Positions 2,949-53,368 of a stretch of 53,402 nucleotides of DNA are shown in pieces (within the stretch, counting starts at the first letter, position 1; each line of letters opens with the position of its first letter). This DNA is from Olsenella uli (GTDB taxonomy: Bacteria > Actinomycetota > Coriobacteriia > Coriobacteriales > Atopobiaceae). Under the pieces are notes generated by a model. It was not told the origin of the DNA and searched no databases. It saw nothing but the letters and a program-made list of their open reading frames with translations. The position numbers and the translations under genes are program-made. The stretch covers positions 1-53,402 of the forward strand of contig NZ_JACJKN010000018.1 in NCBI RefSeq assembly GCF_016900775.1, read 5' to 3'.

Positions 2949-3521
2949 CTACTCGAGCCCCGCGTCTCCCTCGGCTCCCGCGTGGAAGCGCGCCCGGTAC
3001 GAGAGCTTGATGGCGAGCAGCGCCAGCGAGAGAAACACCAGCGTCGCGGCCACGGCCGCCATCGCCTCGAAGCTCACGAGCGCACCGGCGAAGATCGCCA
3101 CCACGGCGAGCGCGGGGATGGCCCGCACGAACGTCCGCGCCACCTCGCGCTCCATGTGGGCCGTGAGCTCGTCGTTCTCGCGCGCGTAGTAGCGGCGGAG
3201 CTCCCGCTCGTCTGCGAGCGCGCGCCTGAGCGCCGTGACTTGGCGGACGCTGACGACGCCCGCGACGCAGAAGAGGCCCATGAGGGCGCCGCTCAGAAAG
3301 CTGGACGAGAGCGTGCTGCCGCGCAGGGCGGGCAGGCTCTCGGTCACCGCGAGGACGCTCAGGGCGACGATTGAGGCGCCGATGACTGCCGCCGAGGCGC
3401 TCTCGCGGGCCAAGCGGCGCCGCGCGTCGGCGCGCAGCGCGTCGAGGGAGCGGGCGGGCTCGGGGTCCTTCTCGCCGGGGAAGAGGTCGAGGCCGCGGCG
3501 CAGGGTGTCAAGCTTGCTCAT
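2949..3521 (-). CDS. Four-helix integral membrane protein with cytoplasmic coiled middle
   Basis: A 190-residue protein with hydrophobic segments near residues 43-62, 69-90, 135-153 and 156-175, and a charged alpha-helical stretch between the second and third (RALADERELRRYYARENDELTAH). It overlaps the upstream XRE gene, and paired XRE-membrane genes of this layout are common autoregulated modules in Gram-positive bacteria. Start choice: ATG 3521 has AGGAG 11 bases upstream; GTG 3530 overlaps the XRE stop as GTGA but its ribosome-binding site is too close. The N-terminus carries a Gly-Glu-Lys-Asp copy of the dispersed 12-mer at 3465. Function unknown; I cannot assign a named family. Confidence 0.75.
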   Translation of the reverse strand: MSKLDTLRRGLDLFPGEKDPEPARSLDALRADARRRLARESASAAVIGASIVALSVLAVTESLPALRGSTLSSSFLSGALMGLFCVAGVVSVRQVTALRRALADERELRRYYARENDELTAHMEREVARTFVRAIPALAVVAIFAGALVSFEAMAAVAATLVFLSLALLAIKLSYRARFHAGAEGDAGLE

Positions 3522-3526
3522 GCTGA

Positions 3527-3736
3527 TCACAGCTCCTCGTCTATCTCGGAAAAGTCAAAGACCTCCTCGATGGTGAGCCCGAAGTACCGGGCTATCTTGT
3601 GGGCGAGCGGAAGCGATGCCGTGTACCTGCCCACCTCGATGGAGGTGATGGTCTGACGCGTGGTGCCCACGGCGTCGGCAAGCTCGGCCTGGGAGAGCCT
3701 CCGCTCCCGACGCAGCTCTCTGATCCTCGTTCGCAC
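3527..3736 (-). CDS. Small XRE-family HTH regulator
   Basis: A 69-residue stand-alone HTH_3 protein (RERRLSQAELADAVGTTRQT, then ITSIEVGRYTASLPLAHKIA), the length and end motif FGLTIEEVFDF typical of YgzD-like regulators paired with a membrane partner. GTG at 3736 is taken as start because GGGAGGCG sits 8 bases upstream and the HTH begins at once; the longer ATG-initiated reading frame has no such support. Its 3' end overlaps the membrane gene. The promoter at 3792-3820 is embedded in three GCTTTGCA repeats, so autoregulation is likely. Confidence 0.88.
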   Translation of the reverse strand: MRTRIRELRRERRLSQAELADAVGTTRQTITSIEVGRYTASLPLAHKIARYFGLTIEEVFDFSEIDEEL

Positions 3737-3768
3737 GGCATCGCCTCCCGGGGTCGTGGATGTGAAGT

Positions 3769-3832
3769 TGACAAGCGCGCTTTGCAAATCAAGCATAGTA
3801 CGCTTTGCACAAAATGACAAGTATGCTTTGCA
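3769..3832 (-). promoter_or_regulatory. Promoter and repeated operator of the XRE/membrane operon
   Basis: On the minus strand a near-ideal sigma-70 promoter reads TTGTCA (3820-3815), 17 bases, TATGCT (3797-3792). It is overlaid by repeats of GCTTTGCA on the plus strand: GACAAG-CGC-GCTTTGCA (3770-3786), CGCTTTGCA (3801-3809) and GACAAG-TAT-GCTTTGCA (3816-3832). Two copies share the longer GACAAGnnnGCTTTGCA form. Overlap of the repeats with -35, spacer and start region is what a repressor operator looks like; the encoded XRE protein is the obvious candidate ligand (inference). Confidence 0.72.
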
Positions 3833-3931
3833 TACGCCGGCGAACGGTGACAAAAGCGACGCGGGCGAGAAGGACCTGCAACCCGGGGAGCTGCGCTACC
3901 ATGGGGGACGACGCACGGAAGGGGAGGTCCC

Positions 3932-4435
3932 ATGGAGTACCGGATTCAGGAGATGCCGGCGTTCAGGTTCGCCGGCGTGGCGGCGCGGGTGCCCATGCAG
4001 TTCGAGGGCGAGAACCCGGCGATCGCGCGGCTGGCGGGGAGCATCACGGAGGAGCAGCGCGCCGAGATGCATCGCCTCATGGACCTTGACCCGCGCGAGG
4101 TGGTGAACGTCTCGTGGGACTCCGACACTGACTTCCAGCGCGAGGAGGGCGAGCTCACGCACCTGATCGGCGTGCTCACCACGCGTCCCGCGGCCGAGGT
4201 CGGCGCGGGGCTCGCGACGCTCGAGGCGGCGGCTGGCACGTGGGCAGTCTTCCCGAGCGACGGCCCCTTCCCCGAGGCCATGCAGCAGGCGACGGCGGAC
4301 ATCTACGGCACGTGGCTCGCGACGGCGCCCTACGAGCTCGACGGCTTCAGGATGTTCTCGTTCAGCCGCGTCCGCGATGACGGCACGGCATACAGCGAGG
4401 TCTGGGTGCCCGTCAGGCCCCGCTCCGGTCGGTAG
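3932..4435 (+). CDS. GyrI-like / AraC effector-binding domain protein
   Basis: A 167-residue protein consisting only of a GyrI-like small-molecule-binding domain: N-terminal strand EYRIQEMPAFRFAGVAARVP and C-terminal DIYGTWLATAPYELDGF, the conserved aromatic end of SOUL/GyrI-like domains, followed by SEVWVPV. In the family such stand-alone domains bind cationic drugs or act as gyrase-inhibitor-like antagonists. ATG at 3932 follows AGGGGAGG at about 6 bases. The dispersed 12-mer occurs just upstream at 3864-3875. Ligand unknown. Confidence 0.85.
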   Translation: MEYRIQEMPAFRFAGVAARVPMQFEGENPAIARLAGSITEEQRAEMHRLMDLDPREVVNVSWDSDTDFQREEGELTHLIGVLTTRPAAEVGAGLATLEAAAGTWAVFPSDGPFPEAMQQATADIYGTWLATAPYELDGFRMFSFSRVRDDGTAYSEVWVPVRPRSGR

Positions 4436-4491
4436 GCGAGGGGCGTAGAGCCCGTGGGCTAAACTATGGCTATCGGTGTCGGGAGGTGTCT

Positions 4492-8494: not shown

Positions 8495-8763
8495 CCAGAG
8501 GGCCGCCGCGTTCTTCTCGCCAGGCGTTGGCTCGGGTGGGCAACTTCGGCGGCACCTCGAAATTAACGCACACAGTTTGTTTTCGTTTCATATATATGCA
8601 GTTGGCAAAAAAGGCAAAAGTCAAACTTTGCGCGTTATTTCCAGCGAGAAGAGCGAGAAGAGCGAGAAAAGCCGCGCTGCCCGCCAGGGACCCGACGTGT
8701 CGCAAAGTGGCACCGATGGGCGTCTGCGGCCCGCGCCCCGGAGGGTCCGTGCGCGGCGCCCCG
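8495..8763. other. Intergenic region between converging genes with AT-rich core
   Basis: A 269-base gap. It holds the dispersed 12-mer (8510-8521, minus orientation), then an AT-rich stretch (about 8560-8640) containing CATATATATG and several A/T runs that contrast with the surrounding ~70% GC, then three near-tandem copies of AGCGAGAAG at 8642-8669. No gene or RNA fold that I recognise is present. The AT-rich core may be a remnant of an inserted repeat. Confidence 0.6.
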
Positions 8764-10020: not shown

Positions 10021-13000
10021 TCAGCGCCCTCCGCGTCTTCTGACAATCGCGATGCCGGAGGCCGCAAGCGCCGTCCCGCACGCCCCCGCGGCGAGAAGGA
10101 CCGCAAGGGAGCTCGTTGCGTCGCCGGACTCGGGGAGGGGCTCGGCGTCCGTCTGGCCGTCGGTCACCTCGCCCGCGGGGGTGGGCGTCGGATCGGGCTC
10201 CGGGCCCGGCGTCGGATCGGGGCCGGGGTCGGGCCCGGGCGCTGGCTCTGAGCCCCTCTCGCGCACGTGAACGAAGTAGGCGGCGCTCACGGCGTCCCCG
10301 CCCGCAATGGCGCCCTCGGCGGAGGTCGCCTCCCTGCCCGAGGCCACCTCCTCGGCGCTCCCCGCGTAGATGGCGTATCCGTCGGCAATGAGCGCGTCGG
10401 CGTCAACCTCGCTCACCGCGTAGGAGGCCCCCTCGGGGAGCCCGGAGACGAGCACGCCCGAACCGCCCGTGAGTCCCTCGACGCGGGCCACGCCGTCGGT
10501 CCCTCCCCCCACGCGCGAGAACACGATTCGCTCCTCACTGACCTGGTCTCCCGCGCGGCGCGTCGCCTCGAAGGCGAGCGCGTCCTCGTCGGGGTGCGCC
10601 GCGAAGAGGCCTCGCACGACCACCTCGAACGAGACCGCGCGGTCGGGCTCGGCGTCGTTGCCGGCCATCACGCTGGCGATCCCCAGGTCGCCCGCGCTCC
10701 ACGCGTTGGTGAAGGAGGCGAGCGCCTCCCCATCAGCCTCGACCGCTCCCTCGCCGCCCGTTTGCAGGGAGAGGTAACCGGAGCCCGAGTAGTCGTCCTC
10801 CCGCACGAGGTAGCGCGTCCCGGCGGGAAGCCCCTCGACCACGAGCTCCTGGCCGCCAGCGAGCCTTGCCGAGAAGGACCCGTCCCCGTCGAGCGCGGCC
10901 GTCGCAGCGGAGTCGCCCACGCGATAGGTGACCTGGCCGGAGAGGGGCTCCCCGTCCTCGTCCCTGAGCGTGACGGAGAAGGAGAAGCTCGCTCCCGCCG
11001 GCCCGCCGTCGACGTCCTTGCGAACGCGCAGAGACCCCGTCCTGACCCCAAGGGGCACGACGAGCGCGCCGTTGTTCCCGAGGCTCGACACGAGGTGGAC
11101 GCCCCCGGACTCGGGGGCCTCCACGGAGAGGCGCTCCACGTAGGGCGCGCTCGCGGTGGCGTTGGGGTCCTTGCCCACGGACCCGAGGGCCTCCGCGGCG
11201 ATGCGGCGCGGGGTCCCGGCGAGCGCGACGCACTGCCCGTTCCTGACGGCAAAGTGCCTCGGGGCGTCCTCGTCGTCGACCGCCATCACATAGGGGGCGT
11301 ACGCCCGCTCGACGCGTGCCGGGACCGTGTCGTCGGGGGAGGGGAAGCTCGCCGAGTACACGGTCCTCTCGAAATAGTACGTCCTGCCGGCCACGGGCAT
11401 CGTGGCGAGCGGGACGTAGGCGTCGCCCCGGCGCTCGAACAGGGGCGTGTCCCTCGTGAAGGCGTAGTAGGGGTTGGCCTGGGACGCCCAGGCGCCTCCC
11501 GTCGCGCCCGCCTCGGCGGAGTCTCCCGACCCAGTGAACGCGCTCGCATAGACGAGACGGCCCGCGAGCCCGTTGCTCGCTGAGCTCTCGCCGAGCGCGC
11601 CCTCGAGCTCCGCGTCGCTCACGACCTCGCCGGCCTCCATGCGCTTGAGCAGCGTCGAGAGGGCGGGCGTCGGCTCCACCTGGTAGGCGAGGCGGATCGG
11701 GGTGGTCTCGAGCGCGTGGTCGAGACTCATGGTGGCGGAGCCGTCCTCCCGCACGCTCACGTCTGCGCGCAGGGCGGGCACGGCCTCCACGGGGACGGAG
11801 AGCAGGAGCTCCTGGCGACCCGTCGCGAGGTCGGTCTCCACCATCACGACGAAGTCGTACAGGGTGACGTCGCCGCCGTCGTACTGGCTTCGGTAGTTGC
11901 CGATATAGAAGTAGGTCTCGCAGACCGCGGCGGCACCCGCCGCCTGGGCGGCCTCGATGCGGGCGCGCACGTTCTCGGGGGCGCGATCCTTCCAGTCTCC
12001 GTCCGTCGCGGCGTCGACCTCCTCCTGCGTGGCGAAGGTGTACGAGCGGCCCTGCGAGGGGACCATCCCGTGCGCCCCGTTGACGTACCAGGAGGCGTGG
12101 TTGGAGAAGTCGTCGTCACTCGCATAGGAGAACTGCCCGTCGGCGAGGGCCTGGTAGAAGAGGTCGTACGTCTCGTTGCCCAGTCCGTAGCGCGCGTTCA
12201 TGGCCTCCACGAGGTAGCTGAACTCGTGGGTGGCGTCGGGGTGGTAGGGGTCCTCCAGGCTGATCTTCACCGCCTGCGCGGCGAGCGCGCCGCTGAGCAG
12301 GTGAGAGCCGTAAACGATGCCGTCAACGCGCGCGACCCGCATGCCCGCGCCCACCCGGTCGGAGAGCTGGACGCGGCTGCCGCCCGGCATGTCCTCGTCC
12401 GGCCCTCCCGAGGCAGGAGCGGCGTACGAGATGCCGAGCGAGCGACCCACCGCCGAGCCGAGCGCCCAGGTGAGCGCCCGGGCGCTGCGGGCGGGAAGGT
12501 AGTCGTCGACGGGGGAGAGCGCGAGCGGGTCACCTGCCGGGACCAGGCCGTCCTTTGTGGGGAGCGTCACGCTTGCGGCGACAAGCCCGCCCGCGCCCGA
12601 GCCAAAGAGGTCGAGCGTCACGCTCTGCTCGCCCGCGGCTGCCGCGGCCGCGTATGCCTGGGCCGCGCCCCTGAGGTTGTCGCGCAGGTCCTGGCCGGCG
12701 GCCGTCCCCGAGCCCGGCAGCTCGTGGGCCGCCTGCTCGAGCGGGGTCTCCAGCAGGTAGGCCGCCGTCTCGCTCGTGTCGAGGCCAACGGTGTAGAGGC
12801 TGAGCTCGCCTCCGGCGCCGCCCCAGGCATCGCTCACGCGGCCCGCCTCGTAGCGCATGGTGAGCAGCGTGGCGAGGAGCGCGTCGGTGCCGTAGCCGGT
12901 CTGCCGGCTCCCGGGGAGGGGCCCGAGAAACCCGGTGCCGTCCCCCTCGTAGGAGGGAGGGTCGAAGAGGCTCGTGCTCGCCATGGGCGGCGTCTCGATC

Positions 13001-15893: not shown

Positions 15894-17389
15894 GCGCGCT
15901 CGAGTTCCGCGACGTGACGTTCTCGTACCCCGGCGGCGCGGACGTCCTGCGCGGCATCTCCCTCGATGTGCCCGAGGGCGCCTTTGCCCTGCTCGTTGGC
16001 GCAACGGGGTCAGGAAAGTCCACGATGCTGCGTCTCGTCAAGCCTGAGATCGCCCCTGCCGGCGAGCTCTCCGGCGCGGTGCGCGCCTTCGGGGAGGACG
16101 TGCGCTCGCTGGGGCCGCTCGCCTCCGCGCGCGCCGTGGGCTACGTCTTCCAGAGCCCGGACGCGCAGGTCGTCTGCGAGACCGTCTGGCACGAGATGGC
16201 CTTCGGCCTGGAGAACCTCGGAGTCCCCGAGCCGGAGACGCGCCGGCGCGTGGCGGAGACATGCTCGTTCTTTGGCATGGGGCCGTGGTTCCGCGAGCGC
16301 ACGGCGGAGCTCTCCGGCGGGCAGCGCCAGCTTCTCGCCCTCGCATCGACGCTCGCCATGCGGCCGCGCCTGCTTCTGCTTGACGAGCCTACGAGCATGC
16401 TCGACCCCCTTGCCGAGAAGGACTTCCTCGCGATGCTCTTCCGCGTGAACCGCGAGCTGGGCGTCACCGTGGTGGTGGCCACCCACGCGCCCGAGGCGAT
16501 GCTTGACTACGCGACGTGCGCGTTCGAGCTCGCGGAGGGGCGCGTGCGGGAGGTCCCGCTGGAGGAGGTGGCTCGTCCCGAGCCGCTGCGCGCCGCCCCA
16601 CGTCAAGTCCGCCCACGGGGTCCTGACGCTCCCGGCGCAGGGTGCGGGGCAGGGAGCGCCAAAAGCCCGCGGGCAGATTCGCTGCAAGGGGGATGCGCGC
16701 CCGACGGGCCCTCGGGAGGGCGCTTCGAAGAGAGGGGCCTGATCGTCGCAGACGACCTCTGGTTCCGCTATGACCGCGACGGACGGTGGGTCCTGCGCGA
16801 GCTGGACCTCGATCTGGGCGCGGGCGAGGTTCGTGCCGTAGTGGGCGCCAACGGGTGCGGCAAGTCGACGCTGCTTGCGGCGATGGCGGGGGTCGTGCGC
16901 CCTCGGCGGGGGCGGGTGCGCAACGCCGCCGCGACGAGCCAGGCGCTGCTGCCGCAAAGCCCCAAGGCGCTCCTCTCCCGCGAGACGGTGCGCGACGAGC
17001 TCATGGAGTGGTCGCATGCTGGCGGGTATGGCGCGCGGGAGGTGGGGGCGTCCCTCGCCGAGCTCGGTCTCGACGTCGCCGCCGACCGGCATCCCTACGA
17101 CCTCTCCGGAGGCCAGCAGCAGCTGCTCGCGCTGGAGAAGCTGCTGCTCGTGCGCCCGCGCCTGCTGCTGCTCGACGAGCCGACCAAGGGGCTCGACCGC
17201 CCGGCGCGCGAGCGGGTGGCTGCCCGCGTGGCCCGGGCGCGCGCCGAGGGCGCCACGGTCCTTCTCGCCACGCACGACATGGCCTTCGTGCGCGCCGTGG
17301 CGGACCGCGTCTCCCTCATGTTTGACGGCGGCATCGCCGTGACCGAACCCACCGAGGAGTTCTTCAAAAACTCCTGGCTGTATCGCTGA
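15890..17389 (+). CDS. Fused tandem ECF ATPase (EcfA-EcfA')
   Basis: A 499-residue protein carrying two complete ABC ATPases. The first: Walker A VGATGSGKST, Q-loop FQSPDAQVV, signature LSGGQRQ, Walker B LLLLDEPTSMLD, switch His VVVATHAP. The second: VGANGCGKST, signature LSGGQQQ, LLLLDEPTKGLD, LLATHDM. They are joined by a low-complexity Gly/Pro/Arg linker of about 55 residues (around 225-285). Fusion of the two EcfA subunits is seen in several Actinobacteria. ATG 15890 overlaps the EcfT stop by 4 bases, ensuring coupled translation. It powers substrate import with EcfT and the S component. Confidence 0.92.
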   Translation: MSALEFRDVTFSYPGGADVLRGISLDVPEGAFALLVGATGSGKSTMLRLVKPEIAPAGELSGAVRAFGEDVRSLGPLASARAVGYVFQSPDAQVVCETVWHEMAFGLENLGVPEPETRRRVAETCSFFGMGPWFRERTAELSGGQRQLLALASTLAMRPRLLLLDEPTSMLDPLAEKDFLAMLFRVNRELGVTVVVATHAPEAMLDYATCAFELAEGRVREVPLEEVARPEPLRAAPRQVRPRGPDAPGAGCGAGSAKSPRADSLQGGCAPDGPSGGRFEERGLIVADDLWFRYDRDGRWVLRELDLDLGAGEVRAVVGANGCGKSTLLAAMAGVVRPRRGRVRNAAATSQALLPQSPKALLSRETVRDELMEWSHAGGYGAREVGASLAELGLDVAADRHPYDLSGGQQQLLALEKLLLVRPRLLLLDEPTKGLDRPARERVAARVARARAEGATVLLATHDMAFVRAVADRVSLMFDGGIAVTEPTEEFFKNSWLYR

Positions 17390-18615: not shown

Positions 18616-18855
18616 CGGCCCGGCGTTCTTCTCGCCCATCGTTGCCCCGCGCGATCCCGGCGAGCATGCCTCCGCGCACGGAGTCGCGACCTTGGCGTGA
18701 AGAGCCGTGCGCAGAGGCGTGCTCGCGCCAAGTGGGATCGCGCCCCTTTACAACTCACGCCGTCTCCGCTATCGTGGGCACGTTTCATGCCGTGAATCAC
18801 TGTCGAGGGTTCCGCGCGCGGGGGCAGCCGTCCGCGGGGCAAGAAGGAGATGTGC

Positions 18856-19653
<798 letters not shown>

Positions 19654-19677
19654 GCGCTCTCCCATACGCACCTGGGG

Positions 19678-19747
19678 GCGCCCCCGTTCTTCTCTCCGGC
19701 TCACTGCGCTGCGCGCAGAAATCGCCGGGCGAGAAGAACGGGGGCGC
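19678..19747 (+). terminator. yebC terminator hairpin containing the dispersed 12-mer
   Basis: GCGCCCCCGTTCTTCTC (19678-19694) pairs perfectly with GAGAAGAACGGGGGCGC (19731-19747), and an inner CCGGC/GCCGG pair extends the stem. The right arm is an exact copy of the 12-mer (19728-19739) and the left arm its complement with one base changed, so the terminator is built from two facing copies, as uptake-sequence terminators are in Neisseria and Haemophilus. Confidence 0.75.
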
Positions 19748-19880
19748 TCGCGTGTGCGGGGCGAATGTCGCCAACCGCAGGAAACTGCCGGCTGTGCGGG
19801 CGCGTGAGGTCTGAGGGACGTTGCGTTTGTTGGGGTTATGGCAGCCGCGCCACGGCGTCAACTGGGCGTTCTTCTTGGCC

Positions 19881-20390: not shown

Positions 20391-21680
20391 ATGCCCAACG
20401 CGTATCAGAACATGACCGACGCCCAGCTCGACGCCGCCGTCGCGGAGCTCGAGCGCCAGGCGGACGACCTGCGCGCCCTCAACCTCAAGCTCGACATGGC
20501 CCGCGGCAAGCCGAGCCCCGAGCAGACCGCGCTCTCCAAGCCCATGCTCGACCTGCTCACCAGCGAGAGCGACCTCTCCGACCAGGGCGTGGACGCCGAC
20601 AACTACGGCGCGCCCGACGGCCTGCCCTCCGCCCGCGCGCTCGCGGCGGAGCTCCTTGGCGTGGACGCCGCCAACGTCTCCGTCATGGGCTCCTCGAGCC
20701 TCAACATCATGTACGACTGCGTGGAGCACGGCTACGTCCACGGCATCGGCGGCAACGCGCCCTGGTGCCAGCAGGGCGAGGTCAAGTTCCTCTGCCCCGC
20801 GCCCGGCTACGACCGCCACTTCACCGTGACGGAGAGCTTTGGCATCAAGAACGTGCCCGTTCCCATGCGCGAGGACGGCCCGGACATGGACGTGGTCCGC
20901 GAGTACGTTGAGAAGGACGCCACGGTCAAGGGCATCTGGTGCGTGCCCAAGTACGCCAACCCCACGGGCGTCACCTACTCCGACGACGTGGTGCGCGCCT
21001 TCGCGACGCTCAAGCCCGCCGCGCCCGACTTCCGCATCTTCTGGGACAACGCCTACGCCGTCCACACCTTCGAGGGCGAGGGCGACGAGCTCCTCAACAT
21101 CTTTGACGCCCTGGCCGAGCAGGGCGGCGAGAAGAACCTCGTCTACGAGTTCGCCTCCACGGCCAAGGTGACCTTCCCCAGCTCCGGCATGGCGTGGGTC
21201 ACCGCGAGCCCGGCCGACATGGCGGAGCTGCGCCGCGCCTTCGCCGCGATGCGCGTCTCGCCGGAGAAGATCTCCCAGCTCGCGCACGTCCGCTTCCTGA
21301 AGGACGCCGCCGGCGTGGCCGAGCACATGAAGAAGCACGCCGCGCTCGTGGCCCCGCGCTTCGCCCTCGTGGAGGAGAAGCTCTCGGCGGGCCTCGGCGA
21401 GCTGGACTGCGCCACGTGGACCCACCCCAAGGGCGGCTACTTCGTCTCCTTCGAGGGGCCGGAGGGCTCGGCCAAGGCCATTGTCTCGCTCGCCAAGGAG
21501 CTCGGCGTCACGCTCACGCCCGCCGGCGCCCCCTGGCCCTACGGAGCCGACCCGCGCGACACCAACATCCGCATCGCGCCCACCTACCCCTCGCTCGAGG
21601 AGCTCGGTCAGGCGCTCGACGTTTTCGTCGTGGCGGTCAAGCTGGTGTCCGCGCGCCTCGCGCGCGCCGAGCGCGGCTAG
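20391..21680 (+). CDS. Class I aminotransferase (MocR-like aspartate aminotransferase fold)
   Basis: A 429-residue PLP-dependent enzyme of the Aminotran_MocR group (no HTH). Visible motifs: LDMARGKPSPEQ at the N-terminus, NYGAPDGLPSARALAAELLG, CPAPGYDRHF (PLP-stacking Tyr), KYANPTGVTYSDD, FWDNAYAVHTF (Asp and Tyr to pyridine N and O), and the Schiff-base lysine in FASTAKVTFPSSG. The C-terminus NIRIAPTYPSLEEL holds the substrate-carboxylate Arg. Related enzymes act on aspartate or aromatic amino acids. GAGGAGGAACC precedes ATG 20391. Single-gene unit ending in a strong hairpin. Confidence 0.9.
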   Translation: MPNAYQNMTDAQLDAAVAELERQADDLRALNLKLDMARGKPSPEQTALSKPMLDLLTSESDLSDQGVDADNYGAPDGLPSARALAAELLGVDAANVSVMGSSSLNIMYDCVEHGYVHGIGGNAPWCQQGEVKFLCPAPGYDRHFTVTESFGIKNVPVPMREDGPDMDVVREYVEKDATVKGIWCVPKYANPTGVTYSDDVVRAFATLKPAAPDFRIFWDNAYAVHTFEGEGDELLNIFDALAEQGGEKNLVYEFASTAKVTFPSSGMAWVTASPADMAELRRAFAAMRVSPEKISQLAHVRFLKDAAGVAEHMKKHAALVAPRFALVEEKLSAGLGELDCATWTHPKGGYFVSFEGPEGSAKAIVSLAKELGVTLTPAGAPWPYGADPRDTNIRIAPTYPSLEELGQALDVFVVAVKLVSARLARAERG

Positions 21681-27111: not shown

Positions 27112-27201
27112 CGAGCACGGGGTCGAGGTCCTTCTCGGCCCCGCGTTTTTTGCGGCGCGTTCGGCCCCGCGTTCTTCTCGCCCCCTCCGGAATCGCCCGC
27201 G

Positions 27202-29999: not shown

Positions 30000-30166
30000 G
30001 CGCGGCGCCACAGATCATCGGGCCCCTCTCGGCTCGCCTCGGCGCGCGGCGAGAAGAACCGGCGAGAAGGGCGGCCCGCCCTGGCACCGTGGTTTTCTCG
30101 CGGGCCGGGGCGGGGCATGCCCGGACGCGCTACCATGGAAAGACTACGGACCCACGGAGGGGGCAC

Positions 30167-34763: not shown

Positions 34764-36017
34764 CTACTCTTCCAGCGGGCGGTCGAAGATGATGTGCACT
34801 GTGTCTCCCGCACGTGCGGTCTCACCACACATCGGGTCGGTGGCGATTGCGACGGGCGTGCCCTCGCCGTCCAAGTTGAAGCTCCATCCCGTAACGTAGG
34901 GGTCGGGAGTGAGCCCGGCGAAGAAGATTTCGCTCGAGGCCTCAACCGGCGTCATGAAGAGCACGTCGGGCACCATGACGTCGCTCGTGACGGTAAGCTC
35001 CACCGGCTCGTTGGGAGACGCCCAGGATCCGGAGGGAGACTGCGCGAGGATGACCCGATTGTCGCTCGGGTCAACGTCTCCTTGATACGTGACCTCTACG
35101 TTCGAGAAGCCCGTCCCCTCAAGCAGCTCCCGGGCATCGCGCTCGGAGCAGTTGAGGGTGACCTGGGGAATCTGCCGCAGGCCCGAGACGCTCACAATCG
35201 CCTTTGCCTTCCACGACGCCTTGTTGAGCTCGGCGTGAATGGCGCCGCTTGGGTCGAGGGGCATCGAGATGCCCATGTTCTCGGGAAGCGCCTGCACGTC
35301 GACGTCCACCACCGTCCCGGGGCTCTCGGTGGAGCGCGACTCCTGGATGACGGGGAAGTAGCCCTCGGCGACGAGCGCCTCCCATGCGCTCTGGGGGTCC
35401 ATGCCAACGACGTTGGGCATCTCGCCGAACTCGGTCTCCACCACGGCAGGCGGCCGCGAGCCGAGGTACGCCGCTGCCGCCACCGCCACGGCGACGACCA
35501 TCGCCGCCGCCAGGCACGCGGCCGCGAGGCGCGCGGCGCGCCGGCGGCGCGGGGCCGCGGCCTCGCGCTCGAGGAGGGCGGCGAGCTCCTCGCGGGAGTG
35601 CACGCCGAGCATGCGGTAGCCCGTCGCGCGGGCGGCGCGCACGGTTCCCTCCGCCAGGTGGAGCTTGCCGGCGATCTGCGCGGTGGAGCGCCCGGAGCAG
35701 GCGAGCGAGAGTACGGAGGCCTGCGTCTCGGAGAGCCCGCGGGCACGGAGCGCGGGCCGCCAGTCCTTCTCGCCCGCGTCCTTGTCGGCGCTTTTCTCAG
35801 CGTATTTGCTAACGAGGCCGGCGGCGCCGCTGACGCCGAGCTTCTGGTACGCGCGCTGGCAGAGGCTCCCTACGGTGGAGGCGCCGATGCCCATCTCAAG
35901 CGCCGCGGCCGCGGCCGTCATGCCGGCGAGCGCCGAGCGCGCCGCCTCGGCCTCGCGCTCGGTGAGCCCGCGCTCGCGGAAGTCCCGCTCCGCCGCCTGC
36001 GACGCCGTGGGAATCAT
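34764..36017 (-). CDS. Membrane-bound regulator: two LuxR-type HTH domains, one TM helix, PASTA-like repeats
   Basis: A 417-residue protein with an unusual architecture. Two tandem LuxR/GerE-like HTH domains lie in the cytoplasm: residues 17-72 (GLTEREAEAARSALAG, GASTVGSLCQRAYQKLGV) and 94-148 (GLSETQASVLSLACSG, STAQIAGKLHLAEGTVRAAR). After a basic RRRR stretch comes a single helix (162-184), then three extracellular PASTA-like units: 199-262 (MPNVVGMDPQSAWEALVAEG), 283-345 (PQVTLNCSERDARELLEGTG) and 347-413 (MVPDVLFMTPVEASSEIFFA). PASTA domains bind peptidoglycan fragments in Ser/Thr kinases and PBPs; here a transcription factor appears directly wired to that sensor. The HTH linker carries the dispersed motif as AGEKDW. 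AGGAGG lies 5 bases before ATG 36017. Confidence 0.85.
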   Translation of the reverse strand: MIPTASQAAERDFRERGLTEREAEAARSALAGMTAAAAALEMGIGASTVGSLCQRAYQKLGVSGAAGLVSKYAEKSADKDAGEKDWRPALRARGLSETQASVLSLACSGRSTAQIAGKLHLAEGTVRAARATGYRMLGVHSREELAALLEREAAAPRRRRAARLAAACLAAAMVVAVAVAAAAYLGSRPPAVVETEFGEMPNVVGMDPQSAWEALVAEGYFPVIQESRSTESPGTVVDVDVQALPENMGISMPLDPSGAIHAELNKASWKAKAIVSVSGLRQIPQVTLNCSERDARELLEGTGFSNVEVTYQGDVDPSDNRVILAQSPSGSWASPNEPVELTVTSDVMVPDVLFMTPVEASSEIFFAGLTPDPYVTGWSFNLDGEGTPVAIATDPMCGETARAGDTVHIIFDRPLEE

Positions 36018-36113: not shown

Positions 36114-36182
36114 GCGCGCCCTCTGCGCGGGCTCTCCCGCATCGTCGCAGATGGCGAGAAGAACGTCCGGCAGAGGGCGCGC
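36114..36182 (-). terminator. Terminator of the transglutaminase-like gene, containing the 12-mer
   Basis: GCGCGCCCTCTGC (36114-36126) pairs with GCAGAGGGCGCGC (36170-36182); on the minus strand the stem is followed by TTTTG. The loop holds a second hairpin (GCGGG/CCCGC) and an exact copy of the dispersed 12-mer (36153-36164). Confidence 0.7.
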
Positions 36183-36202: not shown

Positions 36203-38761
36203 CTACGCCAGCGCGGCGAGGCGCAGTGCGAGCTCCACGGTGCCCACGGCGTAGCCGCCGCGCGCGAAGAGCCCCGCGGGCGCCTCCGCTGCCGGCCGCG
36301 CGTCAACGAGGACGGCGAGCGGCAGCAGCTCCGGGTTGGCGAACATGCGGCGCGCGAGGCGCTCCGGCAGCTCGGAGAAGTCGTCGCGCGTAAGGGTCAC
36401 GGGCACGCCGGCAGTACCCAGCGCCGCGAGCGCGCGCCCGAGTGTGGGGTCGCCCGCCGCGTCCTCGCGGGTCACGAGCGTGAGGGAGAGCCCGGCCGCC
36501 GCGACGGCCTCCGCCGCGTCCGCAAGCTCGTTCAGCAGGTGCTCCGTCGGCTCCTCCGCCGGCTCCAGGAACGCGAGGAGCGCAAGGCCGCCGCGCTCGC
36601 CGAGCAGCGGCGCCGCGTCGGGGAGCGGGATGCGCTGGAGCATGTCCTCCGGGCGCGGGGTGCGCCGGCGGGCGCGGACCTCGGTGGGGCCGTCCACGGA
36701 GAACACGAGCTCGGTGGCCTGCTGGTTGCCGTTGGGCAGGCGCGTCGTGGTGGTGAGGCGGTAGGTCCCGGCCGGCACCTCGAGCGCGGCCGGGTCGCAG
36801 CCCCAGAGGTCAAGCTGGTGGAAGCCCCAGAGCTCCTGGCCGCCCACCTGCATGGCGCGGCCCAGGCGGGCGAGCCCCCAGTCGGTGCCGTAGACAAGGG
36901 GGGCGCCGTTGGGGGCGTCTACGCGCAGCGGCCAGGCGCGCTCGCTCGCGGCCTCGCCCTCGACGCAGGACCAGCGCCCGTCCGCGAGCACCTCGGCGCG
37001 CCCGTCGGCAGGCGCCAGCCGCGCGGGCACCCCGAGGCTGCGGCACGCGGCCACGAAGAGCGTCCGCAGCGTCACCTCGGAGGCCTCGCCGCACGCGAGC
37101 GCTCCCATCGGCGTGCCCACGAGCTTGGCCAGGTGCTCGGCGGGCGAGAAGGACATGCGCCCGGCAAGCCACGCCCACGCGGCGGCGGGGTCGTCCGCGA
37201 CGAGGCACGCGAGCTCCTCCGGCAGCGCGCCGGGGAAGGCCGGCCGCCAGGCGCTCAGGTGCTCGAGGCCGATGCGCGGGCAGAGGACATAACGCTCCCA
37301 GGTCTCGCGATCCTGACAAACGCCCCCGGCACCTTTGTCAGGAAGGTGGCCTTCCAGGAGGGCGGGGTCGGCGTCCAGGTAGTCCTTCTCGGCGAGGCCG
37401 GCGAGAAGCGCCAGGCGCTCCGGCTCCGCGCCCGCGGTGAGGAACTCGTAGATAGCGTCGGCGTTGCCGCGCGCGGCGCCCAGGATGTGCGCCACGAGCT
37501 CGGCGTCGTCGTCCGGGCGGGCGAGCGCCGCCTGGCGGGCGAGCTGCTCGGCGTGCGAGCGCATGGCGGAGACGCGCATCCCGCGCGACTCGTCCGCCAC
37601 GGCCTTGCGCACGCGCCCGCGCGCCGCGGCCTCGGGCGAGAGCGGCTGGGAGGGCGCGGGGTGGTCCTCGGGCGCGCGGACGTCCACGTCATGCCAGGAG
37701 CCGGCGGACTCGGGCGCCCCGGCGGCGGCGAGCACGAGCCCCACCTCGGAGACCTCCGCCGCGTCCACGTCCTTCTCGGCCATGAGCGCGCCGGCCGAGG
37801 CGTGCACGCGCACGCTCCCCAGCCCCAGCTCCGCCGAGCAGCGGCCCTCGTCGTCCGCCGTGAGCACGCAGAGCGGGCGCCACCCGGCCATGTTGAGCAC
37901 CTCAAAGGCCACGGTGGCCCCCGCGGCCGGCGCGCCGTCCGGGAGCGCCACGCGCACGGCGAGGCGCGTCGTGGCGGCGTAGCTTCCCGTCACGTTGACG
38001 AGCACGGTGCAGCCCGCGCGGCCCACCACGTCGGCCGGGTCGCAGCCAAAGTCCGAGAAGAGCCGCGTGGCCACCATGGGCGCGCGCCCGGAGGCGGCGG
38101 TGAACCAGCCGCGGTCGAGCGCCTCCTCGGGCTCGCACGCGCCGAGGTAGTGCCAGCGGCCGCCCGCCCAGGCCTCCACCCAGGCGTGGTTGTCGTCGCA
38201 GTGCGCCCACCAGGGCACGTAGAGCTGCCGGGCGGGGATGCCCACCGCGCGCAGCGCCGTCACGAGGAGCGTGGACTCCTCGCCGCAGCGTCCGGCCGCG
38301 GCCGCGATGACGCCGGGCGCCCCGAGGGTGCGGCCGTCCGTGGACTGGTACGTGGCCATCTCGGCGCACCAGTAGTTGACCTCGATGACGGCGCGCTCGG
38401 GGTCGAGCGCGGCCACGCGGGGCGCGAGCTCGGCCCAGAGCGCGCCCCGGCAGTCCTGGAGCGGCTCGTTGTTGACGCGCGCCGTGGCCACGTAGTGGAC
38501 GAAGAGGTCCTCGGGCAGGCCCGCCGCCGGCCCCTCGCGGAGCATGAGGGCGTGGCGCGCGAAGGCGAGAAGGACCTCGAGCGGCGCGTCCACGGCGTCC
38601 GTGAGCGGCAGCGTGGCCAGGTGGTAGCGCAGGAGCGCGGCCTCGTCGGGCGAAAGCGTGGGGAAGAGCGCCTCGGCCTCCATGGCCCGCTCTCCCAGAA
38701 GGGCGCGGCGGGCGTCGAGGCGGCGGGCGGCATAGGTGGCGAGCTGCTCGGAAAGCGGCAT
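36203..38761 (-). CDS. Large cytoplasmic transglutaminase-like domain protein
   Basis: An 852-residue protein without signal peptide or membrane helices. After an all-alpha N-terminus comes a transglutaminase/cysteine-protease-like core: Cys159 in AAGRCGEESTLLVTALRAVG, His192 in HCDDNHAWVEAWAGG, and the acid region WHYLGACEPEEALDRGWF, which has Glu where Asp is usual. Beta-sandwich-like segments follow (VLVNVTGSYAATTRLAVRVA), a second helical part and a C-terminal thioredoxin-like region (LALLAFLEPAEEPTEHLLNE, PLAVLVDARPAAEAPAGLF) without redox cysteines. Related large proteins occur in gut Firmicutes and Bacteroidetes, with no established function. ATG 38761 has AAGGAGGC upstream. A 27-base repeat is inserted in frame at 37314-37340. 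Confidence 0.82.
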   Translation of the reverse strand: MPLSEQLATYAARRLDARRALLGERAMEAEALFPTLSPDEAALLRYHLATLPLTDAVDAPLEVLLAFARHALMLREGPAAGLPEDLFVHYVATARVNNEPLQDCRGALWAELAPRVAALDPERAVIEVNYWCAEMATYQSTDGRTLGAPGVIAAAAGRCGEESTLLVTALRAVGIPARQLYVPWWAHCDDNHAWVEAWAGGRWHYLGACEPEEALDRGWFTAASGRAPMVATRLFSDFGCDPADVVGRAGCTVLVNVTGSYAATTRLAVRVALPDGAPAAGATVAFEVLNMAGWRPLCVLTADDEGRCSAELGLGSVRVHASAGALMAEKDVDAAEVSEVGLVLAAAGAPESAGSWHDVDVRAPEDHPAPSQPLSPEAAARGRVRKAVADESRGMRVSAMRSHAEQLARQAALARPDDDAELVAHILGAARGNADAIYEFLTAGAEPERLALLAGLAEKDYLDADPALLEGHLPDKGAGGVCQDRETWERYVLCPRIGLEHLSAWRPAFPGALPEELACLVADDPAAAWAWLAGRMSFSPAEHLAKLVGTPMGALACGEASEVTLRTLFVAACRSLGVPARLAPADGRAEVLADGRWSCVEGEAASERAWPLRVDAPNGAPLVYGTDWGLARLGRAMQVGGQELWGFHQLDLWGCDPAALEVPAGTYRLTTTTRLPNGNQQATELVFSVDGPTEVRARRRTPRPEDMLQRIPLPDAAPLLGERGGLALLAFLEPAEEPTEHLLNELADAAEAVAAAGLSLTLVTREDAAGDPTLGRALAALGTAGVPVTLTRDDFSELPERLARRMFANPELLPLAVLVDARPAAEAPAGLFARGGYAVGTVELALRLAALA
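37314..37340. repeat. 27-base palindromic repeat, copy 2, in frame in a gene
   Basis: TGACAAACGCCCCCGGCACC then TTTGTCA. It is 25/27 identical to the complement of 29281-29307. On the coding (minus) strand it adds nine codons (Asp-Lys-Gly-Ala-Gly-Gly-Val-Cys-Gln) to the transglutaminase-like protein without breaking the frame. Confidence 0.82.
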
Positions 38762-41769: not shown

Positions 41770-42615
41770 ATGGAAAAGGAACTCACAAGCCAGGGCGAGA
41801 AGGGCCAGGGCGAGAAGAACGACCTTCTCGACAAGGTCGCGTTCTTCGTCTTCATCCTCGCGGTCATCTTCGTCTCCGAGATGATCGGCGCCCAGCGCAT
41901 CTCCCTCGGCAGCCTCGGCATCTCGATCCAGCCGCTCGTCTTTGCCGTCCTCATCGCCATGGTCTTCGGCATCCCGGCCATCCGCAAGGGCGTGCTGACC
42001 CGCATCTACAGCGCCGAGAACATCAAGTACGCCGGCAGCAACCTCATCTTCGTCATGCTGCCGCTCATGGCCCGCTACGGCGCCGACGTGGCGCCCAAGA
42101 TCCAGGAGATCCTCTCCATCGGCTGGGTCTTCCTGCTCCAGAGCGTGGGCAACATCGGCACCGTCCTGCTCGGCCTGCCCATCGCCCTGGCCCTCGGCCT
42201 CGGCCGCGAGGCCATCGGCGCCACGCTCGGCATCGGCCGCGAGGGCGAGCTCACCTACATCTCCGAGAAGTTCGGCCTGAACGGCGGCGAGGGCCGCGGC
42301 ATCCTCTCGATGTATCTCGTGGGCACCATCTTCGGCTCGATCTTCTTCAGCTTCATCCCGCCCGTCTTCGCGGCGCTCGGCTTCAGCCCCGAGGCGCTCG
42401 CCATCGGCTGCGGCCTTGGGTCGGCCTCCATGATGACGGCCGCCTCGACCTCGCTCATGGGCATCTTCCCCGAGGCCGCCGAGACCATCACGTCCTTCTC
42501 GGCCGCCTCGCAGCTCGTCACGAGCTTCATGGGGACCTACGTCATGGTGTTCCTCTCCGTCCCGCTCATGAACTTCATCTTCAAGCGGGTCAAGAAGGAG
42601 CGCGCGATAGACTAG
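41770..42615 (+). CDS. DUF3100 integral membrane protein (candidate nucleoside/nucleobase transporter subunit)
   Basis: A 281-residue protein with about eight hydrophobic segments after a charged N-terminus holding two dispersed-motif units (SQGEKGQGEKND). It fits DUF3100: ISLGSLGISIQPLVFAVLIA, YAGSNLIFVMLPLMARYG, GREGELTYISEKFGLNGGEG, GCGLGSASMMTAASTSL. The function of the family is unknown. Its position between adenine deaminase and nucleoside hydrolase, and translational closeness to a second small membrane protein, make it a good candidate for importing nucleosides or purine bases. AAAGGTG precedes ATG 41770. Confidence 0.82.
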   Translation: MEKELTSQGEKGQGEKNDLLDKVAFFVFILAVIFVSEMIGAQRISLGSLGISIQPLVFAVLIAMVFGIPAIRKGVLTRIYSAENIKYAGSNLIFVMLPLMARYGADVAPKIQEILSIGWVFLLQSVGNIGTVLLGLPIALALGLGREAIGATLGIGREGELTYISEKFGLNGGEGRGILSMYLVGTIFGSIFFSFIPPVFAALGFSPEALAIGCGLGSASMMTAASTSLMGIFPEAAETITSFSAASQLVTSFMGTYVMVFLSVPLMNFIFKRVKKERAID

Positions 42616-44086: not shown

Positions 44087-44105
44087 CGTGCGGGGCGAGA
44101 AGGAC

Positions 44106-47278: not shown

Positions 47279-47402
47279 TGGGTGGCATGTTTGATGCCCG
47301 GCGCCCTCCCGTCGAGGAAATCGGCCTAAAACGCCACGTTCTTCTCGCCATTGGGTGGCATGTTTGATGCAGGTGGGGGATCGGCATCAAACATGCCACC
47401 CA
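47279..47402. repeat. Three copies of TGGGTGGCATGTTTGATGC in a 386-base gap
   Basis: Direct copies at 47279-47297 and 47352-47370 and an inverted copy at 47384-47402; the last two form a perfect 19-base hairpin with a 13-base loop. The dispersed 12-mer sits at 47338 just before the second copy and again at 47472. A decayed form lies at 27202-27340. The rest of the gap 47161-47546 has a GGGCAG hairpin near 47250-47265 and no gene. Confidence 0.82.
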
Positions 47403-47501
47403 GTCGCAGGGGGTTCTTGCGGACCTGCGGGCTCTTGCGGGGCAGCGGGTTCGTGCGGGCCCGGGGCACGCGGCGAGAAGGACGCGCGGGCCGGCAAAGA
47501 G

Positions 47502-49163: not shown

Positions 49164-50021
49164 GTGACCGGTTCTCCTCTCGCACATCCCGGCGCCACGC
49201 GCGCCCTGCTCGAGGCGTACGGCCTTGCGACCAAGCACAGCCTGGGCCAGAACTTCCTGGTGAGCAACCACGTGATCGAGAAGATCATGGGGCTGGCGGA
49301 GCTTGGGCGAGAAGACTGCGTGCTCGAGGTGGGCCCCGGCATCGGCACGCTCACGCTGGCGCTGCTCGCCGGGGCCGGGCGCGTGGTCTCCGTCGAGATG
49401 GACCGCGAGCTCGAGCCCGTGCTCTCCGCGCACGCCGCGGCGCACCCGAACTTCTCGTTCATCATGGGCGACGCGCTGCGCGTGACGCCGGGGGAGATCG
49501 CGGAGGCGGCAGGCGGCGAGCCCGACGTCCTTGTCGCCAACCTGCCCTACAACGTGGCGGCCACGGTGATCCTGCGTTACCTGCAGGAGGTGCCGAGCCT
49601 GCGCCGCCTGGTGGTGATGGTGCAGGCCGAGGTGGCCGACCGCATCTGCGCGGCGTCCGGCAGCCGCACCTACGGCGCCTACACGGCCAAGCTCGCGCTG
49701 CTCGCCCAGGTGACCGGGCGCTTTGAGGTGGGTCCGGGCAACTTCATGCCGCCCCCGCACGTGGACTCCGCCGTCGTGCGCATCGACCGCGCGCCGCTCG
49801 TGGACGCCGCGCGCGCGACGGAGGTGTCCGCCGTGATCGACGCCGCGTTCGCGCAGCGCCGCAAGACCATCCGCAACTCCATGTCCGCCTCCGGCTTCGA
49901 CAAGGCGGCCCTCGACGCCGCCTTCGCCGCGTGCGGGATCGCGCCCACGCGCCGGGCCGAGACCCTCGCGCCGGAGGACTTCGTCCTTCTCGCCTCAGCA
50001 CTCTCCCGACGTCAGGAGTAA
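49164..50021 (+). CDS. rsmA: 16S rRNA dimethyladenosine transferase RsmA
   Basis: A 285-residue KsgA: KHSLGQNFLVSNHVIEKIM, SAM-binding VLEVGPGIGTLTLALL, VVSVEMDRELEPVL, the catalytic VANLPYNVAATVILRYL (NLPY), MVQAEVADRI and VDSAVVRIDR. It dimethylates A1518 and A1519 of 16S rRNA. GTG 49164 begins 6 bases after metG. Near its end the dispersed 12-mer is read as Val-Leu-Leu-Ala (49983). Confidence 0.95.
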   Translation: MTGSPLAHPGATRALLEAYGLATKHSLGQNFLVSNHVIEKIMGLAELGREDCVLEVGPGIGTLTLALLAGAGRVVSVEMDRELEPVLSAHAAAHPNFSFIMGDALRVTPGEIAEAAGGEPDVLVANLPYNVAATVILRYLQEVPSLRRLVVMVQAEVADRICAASGSRTYGAYTAKLALLAQVTGRFEVGPGNFMPPPHVDSAVVRIDRAPLVDAARATEVSAVIDAAFAQRRKTIRNSMSASGFDKAALDAAFAACGIAPTRRAETLAPEDFVLLASALSRRQE

Positions 50022-52290: not shown

Positions 52291-52454
52291 GCTTCCCTCC
52301 TCTCGCCGCGCCCGCCCGCGCAGGCTCCGGTGGCAGATTCTCCCCCCAGCATAGTCCATTTGCGTTTCCGCAGCTAGAAGGCCTGTTCCTGCAGTCTGTC
52401 CCGGGGAGGGGCCCGCGGCGGCGGACAAGGGGGACGCGCGGGCCTGCGGCGTGC

Positions 52455-52460
52455 TACACT
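52455..52460 (+). promoter_or_regulatory. -10 box of comF
   Basis: TACACT in the recurrent GCTACACT context, 40 bases before the comF start. Confidence 0.5.
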
Positions 52461-52500
52461 GCCCTCACCGAGCGACCCCCATCCGACGGAAGGGGGTCGC

Positions 52501-53232
52501 ATGTCGTTTCTCGCCGCGATGCGCGCGGCCGGGGACGCGGCCGCGGAGCTCGTGAGCCCCACGCGGTGCGTGGGCTGCGAGCAGCCGGGCGAGCTCGTCT
52601 GCGAGGAGTGCCGCGCCGCGCTGCCCTGGGTGGAGCAGCGCCTGGCGTGCCCGGTCTGCGGCGCGCCCTACGGCTTTCTCACCTGCACGGAGTGCCGGGG
52701 CGACTGGCCCGTGCGCGCAACGGTGGCCGCGCTCGGCTTCCGCGGGACGCCGGCGCGCATGGTCACCTGCCTCAAGGACGCCCACGAGCTGCGCCTCGCG
52801 CCGGTGATGGCGGCCGCCATGCTCTGCGCGCTCGAGGAGGCCGCGGCCTGGCCCGCCGCGGACGGCGCGCCGCGCTTCGACGCCGCGGCGACCGACGCGG
52901 TCTGCTTCGTGCCCGCCACGGCGGAGGCGTTTCGGCGGCGCGGCTTCGACCACATGGAGCTCGTCGCCCGGCCCCTCGCGGTCCAGCTGGGGCTGCCCCT
53001 CGCGGACGTGCTCGTGCGCGGCCCCGCCCGCGACCAGCGCGCGCTCGGGCGCGAGGCGCGCGCGGCCAACCTCGCGGGGACCACGCGGGCGGCGGGCGAC
53101 GTCGCGGGCGCACGGCTGCTGCTGCTCGACGACGTGGCGACGACGGGCGCTTCGCTCGCCGAGGCGGCGCGCGCCCTCGCGGCCCGCGGCGCGGCGTCGG
53201 TCACGGCCTGCGTGCTCGCGCGCGTCTGGTGA
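52501..53232 (+). CDS. comF: ComF family (ComFC-like) phosphoribosyltransferase-fold protein
   Basis: A 243-residue ComFC: N-terminal zinc finger CVGCEQPGELVCEECRAALP and CPVCGAPYGFLTCTEC, then the PRTase fold with FVPATAEAFRRRGFDHMELVA, RDQRALGREARAAN and the PRPP loop LLLLDDVATTGASLAEAARA. In naturally competent bacteria ComFC is needed for uptake of transforming DNA, although it is widespread in species of unknown competence. GGAAGGGGGTC precedes ATG 52501. The right end of the window carries REP-like hairpins just after it. Confidence 0.93.
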   Translation: MSFLAAMRAAGDAAAELVSPTRCVGCEQPGELVCEECRAALPWVEQRLACPVCGAPYGFLTCTECRGDWPVRATVAALGFRGTPARMVTCLKDAHELRLAPVMAAAMLCALEEAAAWPAADGAPRFDAAATDAVCFVPATAEAFRRRGFDHMELVARPLAVQLGLPLADVLVRGPARDQRALGREARAANLAGTTRAAGDVAGARLLLLDDVATTGASLAEAARALAARGAASVTACVLARVW

Positions 53233-53262
53233 GCCGGGGAGGCCCTCGGGGAGCCCCAGGAC

Positions 53263-53368
53263 CGTCGCCTTGCCCCCGCACGGCAACTCCGCGGGGGCAA
53301 GGCGACGCTTGAGGCGAGAAGAACGTCGTCTCGCCCCCGCACGGCGGCTCCGCGGGGGAGAGACGACG
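53263..53368. repeat. Second pair of REP-like hairpins flanking a 12-mer
   Basis: CGTCGCCTTGCCCCCGC (53263-53279) pairs perfectly with 53291-53307; CGTCGTCTCGCCCCCGC (53324-53340) pairs with 53352-53368 (one mismatch). The loop ACGGCAACTCC is nearly that of 51566-51574. Between the hairpins lies an exact 12-mer (53313-53324) that runs straight into the second stem. Confidence 0.82.

Follow-up and report, generated by a model that had tools for sequence, protein, structure and literature searches.

A repeated short word in Thermophilibacter and related Atopobiaceae as a candidate self-DNA uptake sequence

The DNA stretch analysed here, hereafter the window, spans positions 1 to 53,402 of contig NZ_JACJKN010000018.1 and carries, within genes and between them, many copies of one 12-mer, GGCGAGAAGRAC. 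A pattern scan finds 26 exact copies, 17 on the forward and 9 on the reverse strand, whereas in 100 dinucleotide-preserving shuffles of the same DNA the word appears 0.01 times on average and never more than once. An earlier note on this stretch, made from its letters alone, had placed the chance expectation far below one copy, which is borne out, and had counted about 23 copies, a figure to be raised to 26. As discussed below, the word is probably a self-DNA uptake sequence of the family Atopobiaceae, which would make it the first in Gram-positive bacteria.

TopA from the window matches its counterpart in Thermophilibacter provencensis Marseille-P2912T at 99% identity, and an alignment of 17.3 kb surrounding topA shows 93.8% DNA identity with this species; by sequence, the host therefore belongs to Thermophilibacter, close to T. 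provencensis (Atopobiaceae, Actinomycetota). The source genome (G000; 2,475,799 bases in 66 contigs) and 30 others make up the genus set used throughout.

Copies of the word in the window and in the source genome

By our own gene calls, whose starts are rough, ten of the copies in the window are intergenic, ten lie in sense within genes, where they read GEKN or GEKD, and six lie antisense, five of them as VLLA; 14 copies end in AAC (GGCGAGAAGAAC) and 12 in GAC (GGCGAGAAGGAC). The sense copies that encode GEKD are found at 3465..3476 (reverse strand, as is its gene, 2949-3530), 25426..25437 (forward, in topA), 27556..27567 (forward), 35763..35774 (reverse) and 44094..44105 (forward), and those that encode GEKN, all on the forward strand, at 21126..21137 (an aminotransferase gene), 23018..23029, 27958..27969, 32976..32987 (a PSP1-domain gene) and 41809..41820. 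Antisense VLLA copies are those of GGCGAGAAGGAC at 10090..10101 (forward, in gene 10021-13779 of the reverse strand), 17258..17269 (reverse, in gene 15890-17389 of the forward strand), 38564..38575 (forward) and 49983..49994 (reverse), and that of GGCGAGAAGAAC at 30245..30256 (reverse); the sixth antisense copy, GGCGAGAAGGAC at 37143..37154 (forward), is in another register (MSFSP). The reverse-strand gene 10021-13779 encodes a protein of 1252 aa that contains a DUF7601 domain and may be a large surface protein.

Two of the intergenic copies are of the GAC form, at 3864..3875 and 47472..47483, both forward. The others, of the AAC form, occupy 8510..8521 (reverse, with called convergent genes on either side), 18625..18636 (reverse, with a called stop codon 10 bp before it), 19728..19739 (forward, the right arm of a hairpin, called convergent genes lying around it), 27171..27182 (reverse, downstream of topA), 30048..30059 (forward), 36153..36164 (forward, within a hairpin at 36114-36182), 47338..47349 (reverse) and 53313..53324 (forward, in a weak hairpin).

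The whole source genome has 657 copies of the word, 347 on the forward and 310 on the reverse strand, and only two of the reversed word, taken as a control, which confirms the excess over 2.48 Mb. Tests with shuffles and intergenic DNA covered 393 kb of this genome (the window together with 340 kb from contig C1), where 121 copies are distributed as 54 intergenic, 37 sense coding and 30 antisense coding, and the reversed pattern is absent. The statement that close to half of the copies are intergenic therefore fits this larger sample (54/121, 45%) better than the window itself (38%). A stricter order-5 Markov model of all 393 kb, into which much of the motif already enters, still places the AAC form 18-fold and the GAC form 14-fold above expectation.

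Could codon usage or amino-acid composition alone, with GEKN and GEKD peptides written in a genome of 70% GC, produce such a word? Sense copies in frame 0 are indeed largely matched by 200 synonymous-codon shuffles, which keep the proteins fixed (34 observed, 22.6 expected), in line with the share of coding copies that had been granted to favoured codons from the start. In antisense frame 0 (VLLA), however, the same shuffles give 0.69 copies where 25 are observed, and between genes an order-3 Markov model of intergenic DNA predicts 0.15 where 49.5 kb hold 54, a density about 5.6 times that found elsewhere. The coding sequences in 400 kb of T. provencensis behave likewise (antisense 20 versus 0.71, sense 20 versus 11.1), and the same core exists at 46% GC in Atopobium parvulum, whose genes contain GCGAGAARNNC 30 times in sense versus 2.7 expected and 31 times in antisense versus 3.4 (100 synonymous shuffles). 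From the synonymous shuffles, about one fifth of the copies are what GEK peptides would yield anyway, and the remainder is a true excess. A match to a codon-preserving background was thus not seen, and the explanation by codon usage alone, which we reject, deserves next to no credence.

Other repeated words were also seen in contig C1 (L001-L017) and the window: CCTTGGTGCGAA and CACCTTTGTCAG, with 20 copies each in the 393 kb, and GGGGTTATGGCA, with 14 copies between genes. They are perhaps repetitive extragenic palindromic (REP)-like elements.

Shape of the word and its placement along the chromosome

Around 147 intergenic copies of CGAGAAGRAC from the source genome and T. provencensis, information is concentrated in positions 1-13, about RGCGAGAAGAACS, followed by a weak S-rich tail to position ~18, with only faint composition effects upstream. 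Single-base variants in the 393 kb indicate that positions 3-9 and 12 are strict and positions 1, 2, 10 and 11 looser, and 43 intergenic copies there have the AAC form and 11 the GAC form. The Thermophilibacter form is consequently GGCGAGAAGAAC with an S after it; AAC is preferred between genes, and GAC is tolerated and common within them. These short edges bear on the suggestion that the copies are those of a self-copying mobile micro-element or of a REP-type family. Some of them do adjoin hairpins; yet similarity fades within ~18 bp around the 147 intergenic copies, which leaves no conserved unit longer than the word, and copies are lodged within conserved genes such as topA. Such an element, rejected on these grounds, is very improbable.

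In Neisseriaceae, copies of the DNA uptake sequence (DUS) occur at the 3′ ends of genes, often as inverted pairs. Spacers of the source genome (393 kb) and of T. provencensis (400 kb) were sorted by the orientation of their flanking genes, and copies are densest in convergent ones (19 in 13.9 kb, 1.37/kb), followed by tandem (57 in 54.8 kb, 1.04/kb) and divergent spacers (15 in 25.2 kb, 0.60/kb). Within tandem spacers, 36 copies are closer to the stop and 21 to the start, and orientation relative to transcription is even (28 same, 29 opposite). Inverted pairs no more than 30 bases apart occur in 27 of the 31 genus genomes, with 1-17 in each, and the reversed control gives none in any of the 31.

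The hairpin at 19676..19749, between called convergent genes, is a near-perfect case of such an inverted pair: the arm formed by the word faces a partner arm with one mismatch, and the fold reaches -62.2 kcal/mol (z -9.6). That at 36114-36182 is also strong (z -5.6), and a weaker one lies in 53290-53370 (z -2.3). Two of these structures had been announced as terminators, and the structures themselves hold, although no T-run flanks the first; the third had been described as a REP-like hairpin abutted by the word, and it is present, weaker than the others and with the word inside it. Together with the density in convergent spacers, the two strong hairpins would suit an element acting at the RNA level, as a piece of intrinsic terminators or of hairpins that stabilize mRNA. 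Few copies are paired, however: among 199 there are 12 close pairs (at most 40 bp apart), 8 of them inverted, a small minority. Moreover, two of the five intergenic copies that were folded show no structure beyond that of shuffles (z -0.27 and -0.15), and the antisense coding copies far exceed their synonymous shuffles. We regard an RNA-level role for the word as improbable, slightly more so than the polar signal considered next.

Such a signal, of the type of Chi or of the FtsK-orienting polar sequences (KOPS), would be read in one orientation by a helicase or a translocase in recombination or segregation, and an abundant, non-palindromic word found both inside genes and between them might well be one. 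Replichores were inferred from gene strand, and 78 copies of T. provencensis were tested. Among coding copies the leading strand is favoured (27 versus 13, p 0.04), and so it is, weakly, among all copies taken together (48 versus 30, p 0.054). The intergenic ones, on the other hand, are unbiased (21 leading, 17 lagging, p 0.63), and the coding lean parallels the orientation of the genes, which in the sample amount to 228 kb on the leading and 108 kb on the lagging strand. With the intergenic bias absent and the coding lean weak, a strand-polar signal was set aside as improbable.

Copies are present in 18 of 20 sampled stretches of T. provencensis, with no clear clustering along the chromosome. 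One of the two copy-free stretches (L136, NZ_LT671417.1:262001-282000) consists mostly of rRNA operons, with three 23S-5S units in direct repeat ~6.6 kb apart and 16S genes, the third of which is cut by the end of the stretch. The other 20-kb stretch (L141, T. provencensis 917001-937000) has its called genes on one strand and a GC content of 0.70.

Related words and turnover of sites in the Atopobiaceae

Beyond the source genome, copies of GGCGAGAAGRAC number 227-855 in all but one of the 30 remaining genus genomes and 40 in the exception, G026, so that abundance persists in 30 of 31 genus genomes. The same word is scarce in other genera of the family (3-38 copies, 6 genomes) and in other families (0-14, 23 genomes). 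A survey of 140 genomes of the family with GCGAGAAGAACS returned 104-530 copies in the same 30 of 31 genus genomes and 23 in G026. Outside the genus, intermediate numbers were found in genera g46 (74-157, 3 genomes), g35 (36-75, 5 genomes), g53 (20-38, 8 genomes), g40 (36, one genome) and g47 (20 and 37, two genomes), as well as in the single genomes G103 (22), G129 (22) and G189 (26); most of the remaining family genomes are near the reversed control. Among 395 genomes of the order, only genus g55 of family f10 stands out outside the family (29-37, 4 genomes), and two single genomes, G051 (18) and G243 (15), exceed their controls.

A TopA tree with 29 rows unites the genus in a single clade (100/100), where copies number 333-855; counts are 38-129 in the nearest lineages, and L090, just outside these, has 5. 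The distant L050 and L061, which hold 103 and 44 copies, branch beside Collinsella, whose pool lacks the core, and the distribution is therefore patchy. On the match between dialects and phylogeny, the tree offers these counts, and the dialect logos cover few lineages.

The relation between the words of different genera emerges from 7-mers between genes, ranked by their excess over an order-2 Markov model. Several sets are pools of orthologous loci around topA, for which reason pool counts are not independent; a 4.8-kb piece (L171) of G135 was left out of this ranking and of the GCGAGAARNNC densities given below. CGAGAAG ranks first in the source genome (103 versus 8.7 expected), T. provencensis (106 versus 13.3), G026 (46 versus 15.9), G135 of g46 (25 versus 3.2), a Tractidigestivibacter-group pool (34 versus 3.3) and the pool L050/58/60/61 (20 versus 1.7). 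In two oral genomes, A. parvulum (G105) and Atopobium sp. oral taxon 199 (G073, L051), GCGAGAA takes the first and second place, and CGAGAAG is fourth in both. G073 is probably the same genome as G107 of g35, the genus to which G105 also belongs, because many copies share their coordinates save for a one-base shift between patterns. Ranks are intermediate (9-240) in G070, G140 and four other pools, and CGAGAAG is not enriched in G121 of g6 (rank 4445) or in the Collinsella pool (rank 1765).

The flanks of the core differ between these sets. Logos give GGCGAGAAGAACS for Thermophilibacter, CGGGCGAGAAGRRCG for g46, TGGCGAGAARNNC for A. parvulum and GCGAGAAGANC for G073, those outside Thermophilibacter being drawn from 15-46 intergenic cores each in samples of 67-440 kb. 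CGAGAA followed by three bases and a preferred C recurs in every set examined apart from G070, whose 15 cores carry no downstream signal. Accordingly, GCGAGAARNNC reaches 0.61-0.72/kb in five genomes of three genera (G000, T. provencensis, G135, G105 and G073), including 0.63/kb in A. parvulum, then 0.33/kb in G070 and 0.24/kb in G026, and 0.04-0.07/kb in G121, G140 and the Collinsella pool, where reversed controls are at 0.03-0.10. Related words with a common CGAGAA core and other flanks thus exist in at least three genera, Thermophilibacter included.

Two other repeats turned up in this sampling. Tractidigestivibacter scatoligenes (G070, L108-L113) has a palindromic repeat around TGAGACAAAGGGACAGTCCC, whose 11-mers occur in 6-16 copies in 120 kb, mostly between genes. 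The small contigs of G165 (g53) yielded mostly a CRISPR-like array (L179-L182), with 84 copies of a repeat that ends in GTGGATTGAAAC.

At the level of single sites, the picture is one of turnover. Fifteen sites of the window have an alignable counterpart in one or more of 22 sibling loci, and many of them are kept exactly in certain species and altered heavily in others; the copy at 27958..27969, for example, is exact in 8 of the 22 loci and has 3-6 mismatches in the other 14. With respect to T. provencensis, 28 of 55 sites are identical, and for ordinary 12-mers the proportion is 44%. Comparison of gain and loss at orthologous loci thus indicates that sites turn over between species, while abundance is kept.

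Phage DNA offered a small additional sample. Prophage markers are rare in the 31 genus genomes (the portal PF04860 in none, the capsid PF05065 in 3), and four phage loci, 11.3 kb in all and too small a sample, have no copies, where about 2 are estimated from host genome counts.

A candidate uptake sequence and its place among known systems

The genus possesses genes that could take up DNA. ComEC has one match in each of the 31 genomes, and so does, as one strong match, the T2SSE ATPase, with a second match over the cut-off in six (G005, G007, G017, G019, G021 and G025) and an extra T2SSF in five of these (not G017), perhaps a second pilus or secretion locus. The sole T2SSE match of the source genome is TadA, within a Tad-type operon at C1:273588-282260 that comprises CpaB-like, TadZ-like, TadA, TadB, TadC and Flp-like genes, more pilin-like genes and TadE. 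TadA (T2SSE), TadB and TadC (two T2SSF) and TadE exceed their Pfam cut-offs, and the Flp and CpaB calls combine matches below the cut-off with position. ComEA, with SLBB and helix-hairpin-helix domains, forms an operon with ComEC at C64:28431-31377 of the source genome, an arrangement shared by G026, and the neighbours of the tad operon are the same in A. parvulum and G026. The window itself has a phosphoribosyltransferase gene at 52501..53229 (forward, PF00156). Named comF in the earlier note, it is confirmed as a phosphoribosyltransferase, its assignment to the ComF type being an inference; it is compatible with competence, yet not specific to it.

With such a machine, a protein exposed on the surface, from the Tad pilus or the ComEA complex, would bind the word in extracellular DNA; DNA so marked would be drawn in and pass through ComEC as a single strand, and recombination would exchange it for the matching locus. 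Under preferential uptake of DNA bearing the word, new copies would build up wherever they are tolerated, and this spread would explain why copies are many and no site is strictly kept. By analogy, the word may function as the DUS and the uptake signal sequence (USS) of Pasteurellaceae do. This reading, already proposed in the earlier note, gathers support from the genome-wide and intergenic excess, the codon shuffles, the absence of intergenic strand bias and the short edges of the word, as well as from the turnover of sites at constant abundance, the dialects around a constant core and the presence of ComEA, ComEC and Tad genes. With a little less assurance, we would go further and favour an uptake sequence that arose independently in the Atopobiaceae, perhaps also in a neighbouring Coriobacteriaceae lineage. 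It would be read by a Tad/Flp pilus and represent a third known origin of such sequences and the first case among Gram-positive bacteria, with dialects that wall genera off from one another.

Several observations weigh against an uptake sequence. From the machine by itself the word cannot be predicted, since at least two T2SSF matches (as TadB and TadC) are found in 138 of the 140 family genomes and motif-poor genera thus probably have the pilus too, which is present without tracking the motif. G026 has lost nearly all full words, keeping 40 copies (23 of the A form), although no damage is apparent in its ComEA, ComEC and Tad genes. A loss of competence genes behind this paucity was considered and dropped, all the compared tad and com genes being present, as was a hidden full dialect, 440 kb of this genome holding only the CGAGAAG core with weak flanks. 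Higher conservation of single sites was not seen across the 22 sibling loci, where identity within the motif (0.757) does not exceed that of the flanks (0.79), and is slight relative to T. provencensis, with a divergence only mildly lower (0.112, flanks 0.151). The weak lean of all T. provencensis copies to the leading strand also counts here, and so does G140, reckoned a negative: CGAGAAGNNC is dense there (0.65/kb versus 0.05 reversed) and lopsided by strand (36/16), so it may not be a clean one. No receptor for the word was found, although no search was aimed at ComP; a 143-aa protein of the Tad operon, tried for this part, does not discriminate, as it is present in 133 of 140 genomes. The 657 copies in 2.48 Mb are also fewer than the ~1900 10-mer DUS in Neisseria meningitidis, according to the available part of PMC3630211. 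In the open-licence literature of PubMed Central, with matches judged by title, no report of natural transformation in Coriobacteria or Olsenella was found.

In the same collection, no uptake sequence was found for Coriobacteri, Atopobium, Actinobacteria or in connection with the Tad pilus; among the matches listed, no title concerned a Gram-positive uptake word, and those listed for the word itself with uptake were unrelated by title.

The main rival left is the other alternative of the earlier note: a binding site for a protein that organises or segregates the chromosome (nucleoid-associated, SMC-loading or of macrodomain type), abundant for reasons of architecture. The wide spread of copies in T. 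provencensis, in both orientations and with a preference for intergenic DNA, agrees with it, as does the turnover of single sites at constant abundance, and neither the indifference of the motif to the pilus nor the fact that G026 has its com and tad genes intact would pose it any problem. It is less economical, however: the shift of flanks around a fixed core would need a protein that co-evolved repeatedly with hundreds of sites, and it offers no mechanism of spreading, as an uptake bias presumably would. The preference for convergent gene ends and the inverted pairs are, besides, habits of uptake sequences, and no clear clustering was apparent in the 20 stretches. We consider an architectural site unlikely, though the least so of the alternatives discussed here.

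If the word is indeed an uptake sequence, it would constitute a third unrelated case, now in Gram-positive anaerobes, and suggest that this kind of mate choice evolves repeatedly; such words would then require neither an outer membrane nor a type IVa pilus. Such a case would also point to natural transformation, in a group for which the searches gave no report of it, and hence to a genetic tool in which donor DNA is marked with the word. Dialects would wall off gut and oral genera from one another's DNA, and with them a new clade becomes available for testing whether uptake words originate by selection or drive.

Over-represented short words spread round the chromosome are also known as Chi, KOPS and HIP1, and the word resembles them in this respect. 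Unlike Chi and KOPS, it has no strand bias between genes; HIP1 is palindromic and this word is not, and dialects with a common core set it apart from all three.

With regard to the machinery, the nearest likeness is Micrococcus luteus, of the same phylum, whose transformation requires ComEC and Flp pili; ComEA and ComEC frequently occur together with tad in Actinobacteria, according to the available parts of both reports (PMC4322843, PMC6370729). Thermophilibacter likewise combines ComEA, ComEC and a Tad operon, and the source genome has no other T2SSE ATPase. Its operon includes a TadZ-like gene, whereas the available part of PMC4322843 reports none for M. luteus; the main text of that paper does not contain the term “uptake sequence”.

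Neisseriaceae and Pasteurellaceae are described, in the available part of PMC12616744, as the only families known with such uptake specificity, the USS of the latter coming in two dialect types with a constant core. The word shares with USS its suspected role and its pattern of spread, but the core of USS is GCGG, which none of the dialect logos contains, and discontinuous downstream elements in USS stand against a weak S-rich tail to ~18 here. For Neisseriaceae, the available part of PMC3630211 reports eight DUS dialects with a constant CTG and a distribution that follows phylogeny, and five genomes without obvious DUS. Here, the core is CGAGAA and no logo contains CTG, so that by sequence the word is a member of neither DUS nor USS. 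The bearers differ as well: a Gram-positive member of the Actinomycetota with a Tad/Flp-type pilus instead of a type IVa pilus, whose pilin-like genes, as seen in the source genome, belong to a Tad-type operon, where DUS has a minor pilin of the ComP type. In its habits, the word nevertheless resembles DUS, as a word of 10-13 bp with hundreds of copies in both orientations, tolerated in genes, preferring gene ends between them (1.37 versus 0.60/kb) and forming inverted pairs in 27 of 31 genomes, with dialects around a constant core and some members of the family without it.

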